Part shown: positions 13,843-22,502 of the stretch, piece after piece
Layout: each line of letters opens with the position of its first letter
Position numbering within the stretch: the stretch's first letter is position 1
Notes under the pieces: generated by a model
What the model was told of the DNA's origin: nothing
The model's input: only the letters and a program-made list of their open reading frames with translations
Databases searched by the model: none
Program-made: the position numbers and the translations under genes
IMG/VR virus record: IMGVR_UViG_3300029989_000109
Coordinates: 1 to 32,357 of that record
DNA from: a virus
Strand: one strand, 5' to 3'
DNA length: 32,357 bases

Positions 13843-14682
13843 TTAGCTATCTCGAACCAAAGGATTGACAGCACAGCCCTGCCCTTGCGCTGCAGCAGCC
13901 AGGACGCGCTCCATTGCAGCCACTGAGCCCGCAGCAAACTCGCTGGCATGGCGCAGCAAGCTCAGAGATAGCTGGACTTCGTCGTGATACTTGTGGGCCA
14001 AGGCCTTGCCCAGCGTCATGCCATCGACGACCCGCTTGACATCAGCCAGGCTGGCACCGTCAGTGCGAATGCAGGGCGTGTGGTAGGCCACGCGGCGCGC
14101 CAGGTGCTCACGGCTCAGCTCGTAGGCTTCGCGGGCCATCGCCCAGGCGCTGGCGTCGATCAGGGCTTGCTGGGCGGGTGTGAGCGGTACCGGCTCGCTT
14201 TGGCCCGACAGCAGCAAGGCGCGCACGTCAATGCTGTCGGGCGCGGTCTTGGCCGGGGTGATGCTGGCATCGGGAGCCGGGTAGCCATACGCGACCAAGG
14301 CATCAAGCACCCTTCTCTCACAGGCGATGAAGTAGCGCCGGGCTTCGCGGCCCTGTTCGTTGTTTTCCACCATCGACAGCTCTTTGGCCATATCGAGGGT
14401 CAGGTGGTAGTCGATTGATTTACGATCACCACCATGAACTTGATTCCCCCGATTTGGTGAATCAAGTTTTGTACTCCCCAAATCGGGGGAGCTCAAATTC
14501 TTCACTGTGATGAAGTCCACGCCTTCGACAAAGCCGAATTTTCGGATGCGGCCCTTAATCCAGGTATTGAAGTCGCGCTTGACCTGCATGAAGGCATGCA
14601 GCGTGCGGGCGTCGCAAAGTTGAACAGATTGGGAGTTGAGGGTTCCGGTGAAAACGGGAACGAGCGCGAGCGAATCAGCCAT
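13843..14682 (-). CDS. AntA/AntB-type antirepressor
   Basis: A 279-residue protein. Residues about 20-120 form the AntA/AntB domain: QLCDARTLHAFMQVKRDFNT, WIKGRIRKFGFVEGVDF, then DYHLTLDMAKELSMVENNEQ and GREARRYFIACERRVL, all diagnostic. Such proteins counteract prophage repressors and can trigger induction. The C-terminal region (about 180-275) is helical and differs from the KilAC type; its role is unknown. The gene lies downstream of the Cro-like gene on the same strand and 18 bp before the DUF1376 gene, so it belongs to the rightward (minus-strand) early transcript. A 13-bp perfect inverted repeat (14445-14457 and 14478-14490) lies inside the coding sequence. Confidence 0.9.
   Translation of the reverse strand: MADSLALVPVFTGTLNSQSVQLCDARTLHAFMQVKRDFNTWIKGRIRKFGFVEGVDFITVKNLSSPDLGSTKLDSPNRGNQVHGGDRKSIDYHLTLDMAKELSMVENNEQGREARRYFIACERRVLDALVAYGYPAPDASITPAKTAPDSIDVRALLLSGQSEPVPLTPAQQALIDASAWAMAREAYELSREHLARRVAYHTPCIRTDGASLADVKRVVDGMTLGKALAHKYHDEVQLSLSLLRHASEFAAGSVAAMERVLAAAAQGQGCAVNPLVRDS
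14445..14490. repeat. 13-bp inverted repeat inside the antirepressor gene
   Basis: TCCCCCGATTTGG (14445-14457) and its exact reverse complement (14478-14490), separated by 20 bases. It falls in a variable loop of the AntA domain and encodes LSSPDLG and DSPNRG. It could fold in the messenger RNA or bind a protein. Confidence 0.85.
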
Positions 14683-14965
14683 GATTTGGCCTCCAAAGAC
14701 TGCGGTTTACAAAAACCGTCGCCCTCGTGACCAAACGATGGCGGCAGCTCGACGGGTTGGTCAACCGGGCAGCCCTTGCGAGAACCGGCAGGCCCTTGCG
14801 GGCCTCCCATCGAGCCGCCAAAACTGGAGGCACAAATAGAGAAGCCGCAAATCCTGTGCGGATACTGCGGCTTTCGTCGCAGGACTGATTCAGGTGACCA
14901 AACCCGGCCGCGCAATGTGGCGCGACAGGCGTAGTATAGACCCGATAAACCAAGGAGTGCAAGCA
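14683..14965 (-). promoter_or_regulatory. Structured leader region upstream of the antirepressor, possible Ash-like leader peptide
   Basis: No conventional gene fills this 283-bp stretch. On the minus strand it holds a frame that reads FSICASSFGGSMGGPQGPAG and, further on, PSFGHEGDGFCKPQSLEA, a composition that recalls the Ash family of small phage proteins, and this frame runs on into the antirepressor gene in a different phase. The DNA also has hairpins: GAAGCCGCA/TGCGGCTTT (14841-14849 with 14866-14874, one GU pair) and AGGCCC/GGGCCT (14790-14805). It may be a translated leader or an attenuator; the Ash resemblance is from memory and weak. Confidence 0.35.
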
Positions 14966-18631: not shown

Positions 18632-18651
18632 CGCCCCTCATCCGCTTCACC

Positions 18652-18675
18652 AACCCGCCCTGAGCGGGTTTTTTT
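18652..18675 (+). terminator. Terminator after the lipoprotein gene
   Basis: AACCCGC (18652-18658) pairs with GCGGGTT (18664-18670), loop CCTGA, then a run of T to 18675. It ends the repressor-lipoprotein unit just before the next promoter. Confidence 0.9.
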
Positions 18676-18687
18676 ACGCCCGCAACA

Positions 18688-18702
18688 TAAACACCGTGTT
18701 GA
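18688..18702 (+). promoter_or_regulatory. Operator OL2-like
   Basis: TAAACACCGTGTTGA, 12 of 15 positions like the 18711 operator and 23 bp from it. It overlaps the -35 box of the early promoter. Confidence 0.55.
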
Positions 18703-18727
18703 CACAAGCATAAACAAGGTGTTTAAT
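18699..18727 (+). promoter_or_regulatory. PL-like early promoter
   Basis: TTGACA (18699-18704), a 17-base spacer, then TTTAAT (18722-18727): a near-consensus sigma-70 promoter. Predicted start about 18734. No protein gene starts within the next 630 bp on this strand; instead the transcript would begin with the structured region 18728-19343. Two operator copies overlap it. Confidence 0.9.
18711..18726 (+). promoter_or_regulatory. Operator OL1-like
   Basis: TAAACAAGGTGTTTAA; TAAACA and TGTTTA form a palindrome around AGG. It covers the end of the spacer and the -10 box, exactly as at the PR-like promoter. Confidence 0.7.
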
Positions 18728-18733
18728 TCAGCC

Positions 18734-19343
18734 TGTGCCGGACAGAAATGTTCACAGTCTGATCCCAGGCCGGGCATGGTCCCTTAACAAATTGAGAGTG
18801 ATGACAGCGGCGGAATGCGCAGGCTGATGCGCAAGGTTCTCTACCGCTGGCCCCATTCCAGCCCATGCGTGCGAGCAATCGCCGACCGGAGCCTGATGTG
18901 AGGATGAAGTTGCCAGCAAGCCGGACGGATGACAGCACCGGCCCGCCTCTGCCATCACTCTCAATGGAAATTGTCGATACGCGGCGGCCACTGGCCCCCA
19001 GCTCTGCCCGAGGCGGCTCAAGACCTCGAAAAATTGCACGGCTGGCCCGTGTCGATTCCATAAAAAGCGCCCATCGCTGTGGCGCGGTAACAGCGAGAGC
19101 CCAGCCCTGAGACGGGCGGCACCAACCCTTCCCCTAGTGGAGCCGGATCGAGTCACCGGCACCGCCCTGCGCGAGCGGGGCATCAAGTAAGCGGGTTGCA
19201 CTATGCAAGCTAGGAGGCCCAAAGCAATTCCTGGCTGTCTGACCAACCCGCTTACTGGATGGAACCGCTCACAAGCCGAGGGATAGCAGCAGCTCCTCGA
19301 AGTCCATCAACTCTCACCCAGCCCGCGCCCAGCGGGCTTTTTT
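18734..19343 (+). ncRNA. Candidate large structured non-coding RNA (about 610 nt)
   Basis: Between a strong promoter (18699-18727) and an intrinsic terminator (19320-19343) no convincing protein gene exists on either strand, yet the sequence folds extensively. Paired segments read by eye: 18791-18803 with 18953-18965 (13 perfect pairs) enclosing 18805-18810/18844-18849, 18816-18820/18829-18833 and 18920-18924/18938-18942; 18966-18969/19056-19059 and 18974-18981/19048-19055 (one GU) enclosing 18986-18990/19043-19047 and 19009-19013/19024-19028; an H-type pseudoknot, 19067-19071/19081-19085 with 19074-19080/19090-19096; 19104-19107/19114-19117; 19142-19146/19156-19160; 19186-19198/19244-19256 (13 perfect pairs) enclosing 19208-19215/19229-19236; 19258-19263/19303-19308 enclosing 19277-19281/19295-19299. 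It could be a stand-alone RNA like the large phage RNAs GOLLD or ROOL, or a cis-acting antitermination leader. I do not recognise a known family. Confidence 0.72.
19320..19343 (+). terminator. Terminator at the end of the structured RNA
   Basis: AGCCCGC (19320-19326) pairs with GCGGGCT (19332-19338), loop GCCCA, followed by six T. It lies 25 bp before the first gene of the early operon, so early genes need read-through, antitermination or another promoter. Confidence 0.92.
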
Positions 19344-19367
19344 ACGCCCATACCACTGGAGGCCAAA

Positions 19368-19985
19368 TTGAACACACCCTTCCCCACCCAGACCCGCGCA
19401 GACCCCTGCACGAGCCCGCTCACCCTCTACCGCGCCAACGTCGCGTTGCCGGACAGCATGGGCCAGCCACGGCAAGAGCGCATCGTGTTTTTCGAGGTGC
19501 CGACACAGCAGGCTGGCACCTTCAAGGTTTTTTCTCATCTAGAAAATCTGCTGGCCACAGCGTGGAGTGTTTCCACCGAAGACTGGGTGGAACGCGGCCT
19601 GATCTACAACACCTGGAGCGAGCAGGATCTGTTCGATTCAAGCGCTGGTGAAGGTGATTCACGACTTTTTGAGACCGCCTGGGGCGTGCCCAAAGGCATC
19701 TATTACGCCAACGCCGCCGACGTTGATTTGTTTGTCACGCCCCGCACCCGCGCCCGGCTGGACAAAGCGATGGAGGCGATCACCAATGCGCCCAAGAGCG
19801 TCGCCGCCAAGCACCTGCTTCGCCGGATGCAGCAGGATGGACGACTGGCTTACCTCATGGACCCGCTCACCACGTCTTACGAGCTGCTCACGGCAGAAGT
19901 CGCCGCCGCAACCGGCCAGGACGTGGAGAGCTTTCGGAAAGCGTTCGAGGCCACGCTGAAATACACCCCAGTGAGCCGAGGATGA
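19368..19985 (+). CDS. Hypothetical protein, first gene of the early operon
   Basis: A 205-residue protein that starts at TTG, five bases after a GGAGG ribosome binding site; no ATG start fits as well. It has a beta-rich N-terminal half (ERIVFFEVPTQQAGTFKVFS) and a helical C-terminal half (RARLDKAMEAITNAPKSVAA, LLTAEVAAATGQDVESFRK). No family recognised. Its stop overlaps the next start (ATGA, 19982-19985), so it is translationally coupled to the OB-fold-like gene. As the first gene after the structured leader and terminator it may be an early regulator or DNA-metabolism protein, but nothing in the sequence shows which. Confidence 0.75.
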   Translation: MNTPFPTQTRADPCTSPLTLYRANVALPDSMGQPRQERIVFFEVPTQQAGTFKVFSHLENLLATAWSVSTEDWVERGLIYNTWSEQDLFDSSAGEGDSRLFETAWGVPKGIYYANAADVDLFVTPRTRARLDKAMEAITNAPKSVAAKHLLRRMQQDGRLAYLMDPLTTSYELLTAEVAAATGQDVESFRKAFEATLKYTPVSRG

Positions 19986-20341
19986 CCGAGCCGACCACCC
20001 TCCCCATCCGCGCCTACCTGCGCATGCGCGCTGGCACCTGCGTGGCAGCTGACACCACGCGCGGCGTCGTGCTGACGCTGCGTGACACCGGCGGGCTCTT
20101 CCCGGACGGCATCACCGTGCAGTGGTTGGGCCGGGAAGCTGCCGAGTTCTACGACGAACACCAGGGTGATTTGGTGTCCGGCCGCTGCCTGGACATGGAG
20201 CTTTTCCACTTCCGCAGCGTGCAGAACCAGCTGCGCGCCAGCGTCAAGACCTGCCAGCTTGCGCCCCTGGCGCCCAGCTGGGCCAAGCATGCCGACAAAC
20301 CCGAACCCACCCCTCCAACCCCTTCGCTACGCCTCGTATGA
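19982..20341 (+). CDS. OB-fold-like protein (possible ssDNA-binding)
   Basis: A 119-residue protein. The middle part (GVVLTLRD, then GITVQWLGREAAEFYDEHQG, then DLVSGRCLDMELFHFRSVQN and QLRASVKTCQLAP) alternates strands with a helix in the way of OB-fold single-strand DNA-binding proteins, where V-W-G-A-Y is followed by G-D-V-G-R. The C-terminus is Pro-rich (EPTPPTPSLRLV) rather than the acidic tip of bacterial SSB. It overlaps both neighbours by four bases. A role in phage replication or recombination is inferred from fold pattern and operon, not from a diagnostic motif. Confidence 0.6.
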   Translation: MTEPTTLPIRAYLRMRAGTCVAADTTRGVVLTLRDTGGLFPDGITVQWLGREAAEFYDEHQGDLVSGRCLDMELFHFRSVQNQLRASVKTCQLAPLAPSWAKHADKPEPTPPTPSLRLV

Positions 20342-20889
20342 CCCATTCAGCCACCAAACCCTACGCGCCCCAGACCCACTCGCTGCCTGGCCGCCTTGTC
20401 AAATTTTTCAGCGCCAATCTTGAAGAGGAACTCAGCGCCGACGACATCACCCTGAAATTTGACGTGCAGCGCAACAAGCTGCATTCGAATCTCCAGCTCG
20501 CTGTTGAGCACAACTGGCTTGCCCGCGACGGCAGCATTTACTCAGCAGGCAGCCAGATCCGCGACAAAGCGCTGGTCGTGCCGCTCACGCCGAGCGACTT
20601 CCCGCGCATCGAAAGCCGCAAGGCGAAGGTCCACTGCCTCCACATGCTGGACGTGGAATCCTTGCGGGTCGAAACAGGTGTGCCCTACATGAAAAGGGCA
20701 AGCAAAGGTGACCATAAATGGGAGCCGCTTTTCGCCAAGCTGACCAAGCCGGACCAAAGCATCGCTGTACCCGCCAAGGTCAAGGGCGCGCTGGCCGCCG
20801 CAGTGGCAAAGCGCAACAAACAAAAGCGCGGCACGTTCGCCATCGCACTGACCAGCGCCGACCAGGCCCGCGTGTGGAGGCTGGCATGA
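20338..20889 (+). CDS. Hypothetical protein with winged-helix-like segment
   Basis: A 183-residue basic protein. Residues about 28-70 (NLEEELSADDITLKFDVQRN, then KLHSNLQLAVEHNWLARDGS) look like a helix-turn-helix with a short wing (IYSAG). The C-terminal Ala/Lys-rich part (AKVKGALAAAVAKRNKQKRG, then TFAIALTSADQARVWRL) may bind nucleic acid. No family recognised. Overlaps the OB-fold-like gene and the following membrane protein by four bases each. Confidence 0.7.
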   Translation: MTHSATKPYAPQTHSLPGRLVKFFSANLEEELSADDITLKFDVQRNKLHSNLQLAVEHNWLARDGSIYSAGSQIRDKALVVPLTPSDFPRIESRKAKVHCLHMLDVESLRVETGVPYMKRASKGDHKWEPLFAKLTKPDQSIAVPAKVKGALAAAVAKRNKQKRGTFAIALTSADQARVWRLA

Positions 20890-21035
20890 GCGACACCCTG
20901 ATGACTCTTGCCGCCATTTTGGTAATCGGCGGCTGCATGTTGGGCTCTGCAGGTAAACGCATCGGCGTTGCCATCGCAGTTTTTGGAATTTTTGTTGCCT
21001 GGGGCATTGCCATTGCAGGTGCAACAGGTAACTAA
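20886..21035 (+). CDS. Two-segment small membrane protein
   Basis: A 49-residue protein starting MSDTLMTLAAILVIGGCMLG; two hydrophobic segments separated by SAGKRIG, then FGIFVAWGIAIAGATGN. The ATG overlaps the stop of the upstream gene (ATGA). Such tiny proteins are often missed. Role unknown. Confidence 0.6.
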   Translation: MSDTLMTLAAILVIGGCMLGSAGKRIGVAIAVFGIFVAWGIAIAGATGN

Positions 21036-21050
21036 TAAAGGGAGAAATCG

Positions 21051-22502
21051 ATGAATATCGACACTGAAAATTCAAAGGCCCGCAGCACCGCCTACCTCTG
21101 TTACTTCCTTGCCGCGCTGGTAATGCTGGTCACGGCTTGGTTCATCATCGAGGGCATCCAAGCCACCGAGCCGGACAGCTCCGCGCGATACGCAAAAATA
21201 GCCGCCGGCATCCTGCTGGTCATGCTGCAGGCTTTTGCTTTTAATACTGCAAGCAAGTGGAGCGAGTTCTCAGGCCCACTGCGCCTGCTGGGCTGGTGTG
21301 TACTTGCCCTGCAAATCACGCTGATGAGCTTGACTCAGATCGCTATAGGTACCAGTGCAGGCAAGACCGCTGAACTCAGCACGGCAACGGTCGCAGAGGT
21401 CAGGGCTCAGGCCGAGGCCACACGCAAAAATGCTGACACCCTGCGCGACTCGGCAAACAAGCTCAACAAGAGCAAGCACGGCTTTCTGAATCAGCAAGGC
21501 GGGGAAAATGCCGCCGCAGCCGCAAAAGAAACCGCCGCAGCCGCCAGCGCACAGAACAAACTTCAAAGCCTGCAAGTCGCGGCTGCCAGCACGCCAATTA
21601 TCGAGATGATCGGTAAATGGGGCTTGATTGCGCTGGCCATCGCAATCAGCCTAGTGTTTGAATTTGCAAGCATCATACTGATGCACACGGCTGGCAAGCT
21701 GTCCCGCCGCGCCGACTCGCAGCCGGTTGATCAGCAGATTCTTGTAATGCTGCAGCAGATGCGCGGTGACGCACCGGCATCCCCTTCCCTGCCTGCAGCG
21801 CCAACCAAGCAGGATCAGTCCGACAAGCGTGGCCCAGCCACCGCCGCTGCGCCGCCACAGCCTGCGTTTGACTTCGGGTTTATCCCGAGCAAGCCAGCCA
21901 ATGCCAGCGCAGTAGAGGCACGGCATAACGCACCCAGCTCAGGCGAATTGTGGGCAGCTCCCCGGCGGGATTACTTCCTTGCGCCAGCACCCCAAGAGCC
22001 AGCCAGCACCATAAAGCCCGAACAGCTACCGACCCCAGTTGACGCACCTGCAGCGCCCGCCTCCCCCGTCTCGCCGCCTGATGCATCTATTTACGCACTT
22101 TCAAGAGGTGCGTCTAAACAGACGCACCCATCCCCTGCAAGTGCGTCTGAACAGACGCACCAGATGCAAAAAGGTGCGTCCAAACAGACGCACCCTGCGT
22201 CTGTTGCACCAAAGGAAAAACGCAGCCGAAAAGCCAGCACTGCAGTGGCGGGCGGAAAAAAGATGGACACCGGCACCGGCCCGCATGACGGCTACCGCTT
22301 CCGGCGCGTCCAGGCCGCCATTGAGGCCCGGACGCTGACGCCAGGACTGCGCACGATCCAGCGCGCAGAGGGCGGGGGAGCCCCAGTGGTGCGCGGATAT
22401 TTGGCAAAGATGGTCGAGATGCGCCTCATCAAGCTCAATGCCGACGGCACCTACGAGCTGGTTGAAGCCGACAAATCACAAATGCAACTCACAGGAGTCT
22501 GA
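21051..22502 (+). CDS. Membrane protein with coiled coil, iteron-like repeats and C-terminal winged-helix segment
   Basis: A 483-residue protein with a good ribosome binding site (GGGAG). Three membrane segments are near the N-terminus (about 15-36, 47-66, 79-99), then an Ala/Gln/Lys coiled coil (about 105-175), a fourth membrane segment (about 190-212), a long Pro/Ala-rich linker, three copies of a GASKQTHP-like peptide (about 353-385), and a C-terminal part (about 415-475: RFRRVQAAIEARTLTPGLRT, then VVRGYLAKMVEMRLIKLNAD) that looks like a winged helix. No family recognised. The odd mix of membrane anchor and DNA-binding-like end could tether DNA to the membrane. The peptide repeats are encoded by palindromic 33-bp repeats (22107-22194). 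Confidence 0.75.
   Translation: MNIDTENSKARSTAYLCYFLAALVMLVTAWFIIEGIQATEPDSSARYAKIAAGILLVMLQAFAFNTASKWSEFSGPLRLLGWCVLALQITLMSLTQIAIGTSAGKTAELSTATVAEVRAQAEATRKNADTLRDSANKLNKSKHGFLNQQGGENAAAAAKETAAAASAQNKLQSLQVAAASTPIIEMIGKWGLIALAIAISLVFEFASIILMHTAGKLSRRADSQPVDQQILVMLQQMRGDAPASPSLPAAPTKQDQSDKRGPATAAAPPQPAFDFGFIPSKPANASAVEARHNAPSSGELWAAPRRDYFLAPAPQEPASTIKPEQLPTPVDAPAAPASPVSPPDASIYALSRGASKQTHPSPASASEQTHQMQKGASKQTHPASVAPKEKRSRKASTAVAGGKKMDTGTGPHDGYRFRRVQAAIEARTLTPGLRTIQRAEGGGAPVVRGYLAKMVEMRLIKLNADGTYELVEADKSQMQLTGV
22107..22194. repeat. Three palindromic repeats with a 33-bp period (iteron-like)
   Basis: Units at 22107-22128 (arms GGTGCGTCT/AGACGCACC, loop AAAC), 22140-22161 (arms GTGCGTCT/AGACGCAC, loop GAAC) and 22173-22194 (arms GGTGCGTC/GACGCACC). 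Starts are exactly 33 bp apart, about three helical turns; 11-bp spacers differ. A partial fourth unit may follow (GCGTCTGTTGCACC, to about 22210). They lie in frame within the membrane protein gene. Confidence 0.9.

Follow-up and report, generated by a model that had tools for sequence, protein, structure and literature searches.

A widespread phage-borne RNA family with covarying hairpins and an exchanged interior, represented in the leader region of a viral genome

The stretch of DNA analysed here (the window, 32,357 nucleotides, IMG/VR record IMGVR_UViG_3300029989_000109) contains at positions 18734-19343 some 610 nt that appear to carry no gene, and the question is what such a stretch encodes. 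A previous sequence-only reading had described it as a candidate large structured RNA lying between a near-consensus promoter and an intrinsic terminator, either a stand-alone RNA or a cis-acting antitermination leader. Both boundaries are present. The sigma-70 promoter (TTGACA-17-TTTAAT, read directly, 11 of 12 consensus bases) is located at 18699-18727 and the terminator at 19320-19343, both on the + strand, as are all features of the RNA given below; transcription from the 18699 promoter would be expected to start near 18734. The open reading frames of the stretch had no credible Pfam or PHROG match, in agreement with the claim that it holds no believable gene. The two perfect 13-bp helices that had been reported were found at 18791-18803/18953-18965 and 19186-19198/19244-19256, and an H-type pseudoknot can be drawn at 19067-19096, as proposed. 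Among 150 dinucleotide shuffles of the 611 nt, only two had an inverted repeat as long as 13 bp and none contained two of them. The minimum free energy of the leader was -266.2 kcal/mol (z = -6.55 with respect to shuffles), with z of about -4.5 for positions 18791-18965 and likewise for the remainder (18966-19344), while the first 57 nt showed no comparable folding excess.

The covariance models of GOLLD, ROOL and HEARO gave no match in the stretch, even at E 5, which upholds the statement that this RNA is neither GOLLD nor ROOL. The Rfam tRNA model recognised no cloverleaf in it, and the only Rfam matches obtained up to E 5, weak ones of terminator-like or plant and animal microRNA type, were taken as chance. 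With respect to the surroundings, the genes at 19368-22502, on the 3' side of the terminator (205, 119, 183 and 483 aa), had no Pfam or PHROGs match, and a search for relatives of the downstream protein found none. The window also contains a C4 antisense RNA at 14737-14825 on the - strand (49.4 bits), adjoining an AntA/AntB-type antirepressor gene (13843-14682, - strand).

A first homologue was provided by Acidovorax phage AP1, the sole match in a distant-similarity search of phage genomes. The AP1 copy lies in an unannotated stretch of about 850 nt framed in the same way as that of the window, with a promoter (TTGACA-17-TACAGT) upstream and a terminator followed by a gene after it; an Xre regulator gene is found nearby upstream. 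The alignment between the window and AP1 was limited to two blocks, GGCGGAATGCGCAGGCTGATGCGCAA and CAGCACCGGCCCGCC, which are joined by a helix that AP1 keeps with changed bases. Scanning IMG/VR with the first block, and separately with only the second, gave at least about 180 loci, and most loci carrying one block also carried the second. The elements share a single plan. A P1 stem of any sequence, mostly of 5-21 bp, is followed by AAU and by the hairpin P2 (GCGCA-GGCUGA-UGCGC); then come an interior of 19-178 nt (median 74) and the hairpin P3 (GCCGG-AGAUCAGCA-CCGGC), which is joined to the 3' strand of the stem (P1') without any linker.

The covariance model of this plan, R1, was built without the window and nevertheless matched it at 18804-18952 with 62.5 bits and an E value of 1.3e-13 (4.6e-14 with filters off); no other match above 12 bits was obtained in the rest of the window. 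The whole module, from P1 to P1', covers about 175 nt (18791-18965). The outer part of its P1 stem is the first 13-bp helix, with the 5' strand at 18791-18803 perfectly complementary to 18953-18965, and the inner part is formed by GGCGG at 18809-18813, which pairs with 18943-18947, so that the 3' strands of the stem occupy 18943-18965. The AAU follows the stem, and P2 with its GGCUGA loop is located at 18817-18832, the variable interior (87 nt) at 18833-18919 and P3 (GCCGG-ACGGAUGACAGCA-CCGGC), abutting P1', at 18920-18942. The CAGC of the P3 loop (18933-18936) is complementary to the GCUG of the P2 loop (18823-18826).

The scaffold is conserved and covaries, which is the test that the sequence-only reading had itself named. 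In a set of 88 elements with unlike interiors, from which the window and AP1 were left out, 91.1% of the cells were paired, compared with 79.8% in shuffles and 31-47% when the alignment was slid. Double-sided changes affected 282 cells against 94 in shuffles, and the covariation score was 0.288 against 0.081. At least four pair types were present at most pairs of the P1 stem, and compensatory changes were also found in the stems of P2 and P3. A second set, made up of 61 elements retrieved through the P2 motif only, was 97.5% paired versus 80.3%, in an alignment that was made to model R1 and hence leans toward the structure. Given that the first finder fixed GGCTGA and CAGC, the invariance of the loops in the 88-element set is partly due to selection; the conservation of each loop was judged on sets whose fetch pattern omitted the other hairpin. 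Where it was unselected, the P3 loop was CAGC in 46 of 56 elements and CAGU in seven more. A loop-loop contact between the GCUG of P2 and the CAGC of P3 is plausible from this complementarity, and its pairs hardly vary, so that covariation cannot prove it; a chromosomal form from Pseudomonas, with GACUGA and ACCAGC, keeps only three of the five loop-loop pairs.

A structured phage RNA is thus present, with the R1 match and the strong covariation of its homologues behind it. The idea of one large conserved 610-nt RNA was not supported, since the conserved unit is only the module of about 175 nt and the demonstrated homologues are confined to it. The 3' half of the leader (18966-19343) is structured, with the pseudoknot and the second 13-bp stem, perfectly complementary around a 45-nt interior (19186-19256), and no homologue was found for it. 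It contains at 19139-19162 a companion hairpin (GGAGCCGG...CCGGCAC), one of a kind that is overrepresented around R1-family elements: hairpins of the form CCGG..CCGGCAC occur at 0.18 per kb within 600 nt of elements and at 0.016 per kb beyond, an elevenfold difference. Overall, the stretch appears to encode a non-coding transcript whose 5' part belongs to a widespread phage-borne family. Neither the window nor nine other loci gave an Rfam match for R1-type RNA, and the motif was not found in the open-access papers searched. The R1 family is a widespread RNA family absent from Rfam and is borne by many phages whose hosts are Gram-negative.

In addition to AP1, model R1 finds phage P1 (two copies), HK620, mEp460, PAJU2, SopranoGao, Magnus, IME207 and ST4; mEp460 carries a C4 RNA as well as its R1-family RNA, as the window does. 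With a composite 57-nt query and a permissive E limit, at which some matches are chance or partial, hits were obtained in 212 phage records, in 354 plasmid records and in 1,003 of the 5,426 E. coli genomes. Matches were present in 23 of 149 genomes of Pseudomonas species, and a thin sample of the class gave 2 in 229 under stricter filters. Among named genome contigs, the P2 block was found almost exclusively in beta- or gammaproteobacteria. P1 and HK620 are classical model phages, and around one fifth of the complete E. coli genomes contain the family as well, so that laboratory strains are immediately available for work on its function.

The interior of these elements is hypervariable, with 213 distinct interiors among 233 elements, and it folds only slightly above chance (mean z = -0.56). 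Its mode of change was revealed by pairs of close relatives. The flanks of L013 and L042 are identical at 96.2% over 398 nt upstream and at 98.75% over 400 nt downstream, while their interiors, of 49 and 103 nt, have an identity of 0.40; those of L078 and L216 (47 and 100 nt) have an identity of 0.36 between flanks that are 99.7% identical over 344 nt and 94% over 400 nt. The interiors of L013 and L071 (49 and 145 nt, near-identical flanks) reach 0.28, and by the same measure unrelated interiors of like length average 0.57. The converse was also observed, the interiors of L163 and of the second copy of phage P1 differing at one position within different P1 stems. In phages carrying two or three copies, the interiors differ between copies. 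Unrelated interiors between flanks of 94-99% identity indicate that the interior is exchanged as a cassette between conserved hairpins, which clearly marks the RNA as modular and probably as subject to diversifying selection. Fixed hairpins and a closing stem framing a swapped interior suggest a platform for changeable RNA effectors.

Our preferred reading, to which we would give a probability of roughly 0.6, is that the 5' part of the leader is an R1-family member in which a stable scaffold presents an interior that acts as a trans effector in phage-host conflict. The loops of P2 and P3 would touch through GCUG and CAGC and hold the two ends together, as the elbow and acceptor stem do in tRNA or in the tRNA-like part of tmRNA. 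This scaffold would stabilise the RNA, and the stable frame could be cut out of a longer transcript or be produced independently; in the window, the strong promoter at 18699 would drive synthesis of the module within a 610-nt array ending at 19343. The effector would be the interior, working in trans on a quickly changing partner, either through base pairing or as a decoy for a host protein that binds RNA or tRNA. Its fast exchange points to a partner that changes too, most simply host defence or a rival phage, and from this we infer a role in phage-host conflict; decoy and base pairing are not separable by sequence.

A base-pairing sRNA proper, whose scaffold protects the ends and whose interior carries seeds against mRNAs of the host or of competing phages, in the way of PasD and STnc100, prophage sRNAs linked to Hfq, is a possible but somewhat unlikely account. 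The diversity of interiors is consistent with it, as are the topology that STnc100 shares with R1 elements and its occurrence in their arrays, and one report describes a structural link between PasD and STnc100 and RIL-seq targets for PasD1 and PasD2 (PMC13192938). However, many interiors are partly self-paired and the terminator tail typical of Hfq-binding RNAs is absent from most phage copies. The PasA-D sRNAs were also considered as members of the family and rejected, as the accessible part of their description holds no such core, and the highly expressed ncRNAs of EHEC (PMC5331693) could not be tied to it.

It is more doubtful that the scaffold and its neighbours imitate parts of tRNA and thereby sequester anticodon nucleases or other defence proteins that act on tRNA, an alternative to which the genomic surroundings lend some appeal. 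Genes for tRNA lie within 1.5 kb of 27 of the 233 elements (25 on the same strand) compared with 1.1% of control points, within 600 nt of elements there is a tenfold enrichment of T-arm fragments that lie outside tRNAs, and anticodon arms like that of initiator tRNA (GGGnTCATAnCCC) were found 11 times near elements and 0 times in 1.67 Mb farther away, it being noted that some of the loci counted are near-duplicates, mainly of phage P1. The hairpin upstream of the element often overlaps the P1 stem, and several hold tRNA-like bodies, with lengthened acceptor stems in L194, L266, L282 and phage P1. Moreover, P3 abuts the P1 stem in the manner of a T arm and the P2 loop begins with GG. Against this, the P3 loop is not a T loop, CCA is not conserved, 206 of the 233 elements have no tRNA nearby and no tRNA-acting partner was identified.

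Some of these loci deserve separate description. The upstream hairpin of L194, which overlaps the P1 stem, resembles a tRNA with a D arm, a TCC anticodon arm and a T arm, on an acceptor stem lengthened to 13 bp and without CCA. In L145 (12654-12829), ARAGORN called a tRNA-Phe within the interior of an element. In phage P1 (L184, 2230-3350), about 1 kb between tRNA-Thr and tciA consists of alternating inverted repeats, CACAACAGGTAAGRGYA and TGCTCTTACCGTTGTGRTGAA, which frame two R1-family copies, tRNA-like hairpins and an STnc100-like module.

The antitermination leader, the other option of the sequence-only reading, would require that the nascent RNA bind RNA polymerase, in the manner of HK022 put, and carry it through the terminator at 19320-19343 into the operon from 19368. 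The modules of the window and AP1 are preceded by a strong promoter and followed by a terminator with a gene behind it, that of HK620 is placed between tQ and the annotated qut site, and some copies have a terminator directly downstream. Terminators just 3' of P1', found in 17 of 200 unique elements (8.5%) versus 3 of 461 controls (0.65%), also speak for free-standing units, and some members look like complete transcription units. The chromosomal form is present in ten Pseudomonas genomes (L318-L327). Its RNA measures about 190 nt and is preceded by a conserved promoter region (AATCGTTCTAAAAA); compensatory changes affect P1, P3 and a stem within the interior, and a terminator follows P1' at a distance of about ten bases. 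The genes beside these copies differ between species and none of those seen was phage-like. Three copies of this RNA gene had no Rfam match and it is apparently an unlisted sRNA. With a promoter and a terminator of their own and without phage genes, the Pseudomonas copies make an RNA that stands alone and acts in trans the likelier of the two options. The copies of IME207 and ST4, which are encoded on the other strand from the structural genes around them, weaken the leader further; HK620 already has Q at that place, and wholesale exchange of the interior is not expected for a polymerase-binding element. Antitermination is improbable, though conceivable for the window, and leaves the family unexplained.

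A near-consensus promoter was found within 130 nt of just 4 elements out of 200, and many elements must therefore belong to longer transcripts. In L015 and L145 a promoter lies 12 nt before the P1 stem. That the elements merely serve as processing or insulating hairpins of phage tRNA or leader transcripts, with no trans function of their own, is very improbable, given that their location in non-coding arrays and the frequent overlap of the P1 stem by an upstream hairpin would fit such a role but conserved P2 and P3 loops, an exchanged interior and free-standing chromosomal genes are not needed for it.

Returning to the scaffold with a trans-acting interior, we tentatively extend it, at rather less than even odds, to an RNA chassis common to phages of beta- and gammaproteobacteria, in which effector inserts directed against host defences or rival phages are recombined between two conserved hairpins, and on whose plan siblings such as STnc100 are also built. 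If this were true, the chassis would be the RNA counterpart of proteins with swappable specificity domains.

In comparison with known systems, GOLLD, ROOL and HEARO are also structured RNAs linked to phages or mobile elements, but the conserved unit of R1 is much smaller. The put RNA of HK022 is a structured phage RNA between a promoter and terminators, from which, by description only, the R1 family differs in its conserved free-standing copies and exchanged interior. The stable RNAs C and D of T4 (species 1 and 2) resemble R1 RNAs in being stable phage RNAs, within a tRNA cluster, and rnaC ends in a T-arm-like hairpin; they were discarded as relatives because R1 did not match them (L192). As in tRNA and the tRNA-like domain of tmRNA, a 5-bp hairpin of R1 elements stacks directly onto the closing stem, another hairpin lies close to the 5' end, a variable insert separates the two and a loop-loop contact is possible; R1 elements differ in having a P1 stem of 5-21 bp, a P3 loop unlike the T loop and, in the window, no Rfam match. 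A tRNA with a CCA end had been considered in view of 7-bp P1 stems followed by ACCA or TCCA, but the tails after P1 are mixed (ACCC 14, CATG 10, TGTG 9, ACCA 4, others); CCA does not consistently follow the stem and the R1 RNA is therefore not a tRNA.

The closest likeness is to STnc100 (RF02076), a prophage sRNA of gammaproteobacteria verified by Northern blot in EHEC (PMC5331693) and carried by Stx2 phages (PMC12370729). When its Rfam consensus structure was compared with R1 by eye, both showed a P1 stem, which in STnc100 is followed by GAAU, a 5-bp hairpin with a 6-nt loop, a long interior and a 5-bp hairpin abutting P1'. STnc100 is also found in the R1-element arrays of Magnus (above the gathering score) and of ST4 and phage P1 (both below it). 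Its conserved loops and sequence are different and its Rfam model adds further 3' structure; R1 does not match the STnc100 region, nor did the STnc100 model match the window (18650-19400, up to E 5). The same topology with no match between models makes STnc100 a sibling in form and not a family member, and the R1 plan thereby offers a common layout for unexplained prophage RNAs, namely STnc100 and possibly its relative PasD.
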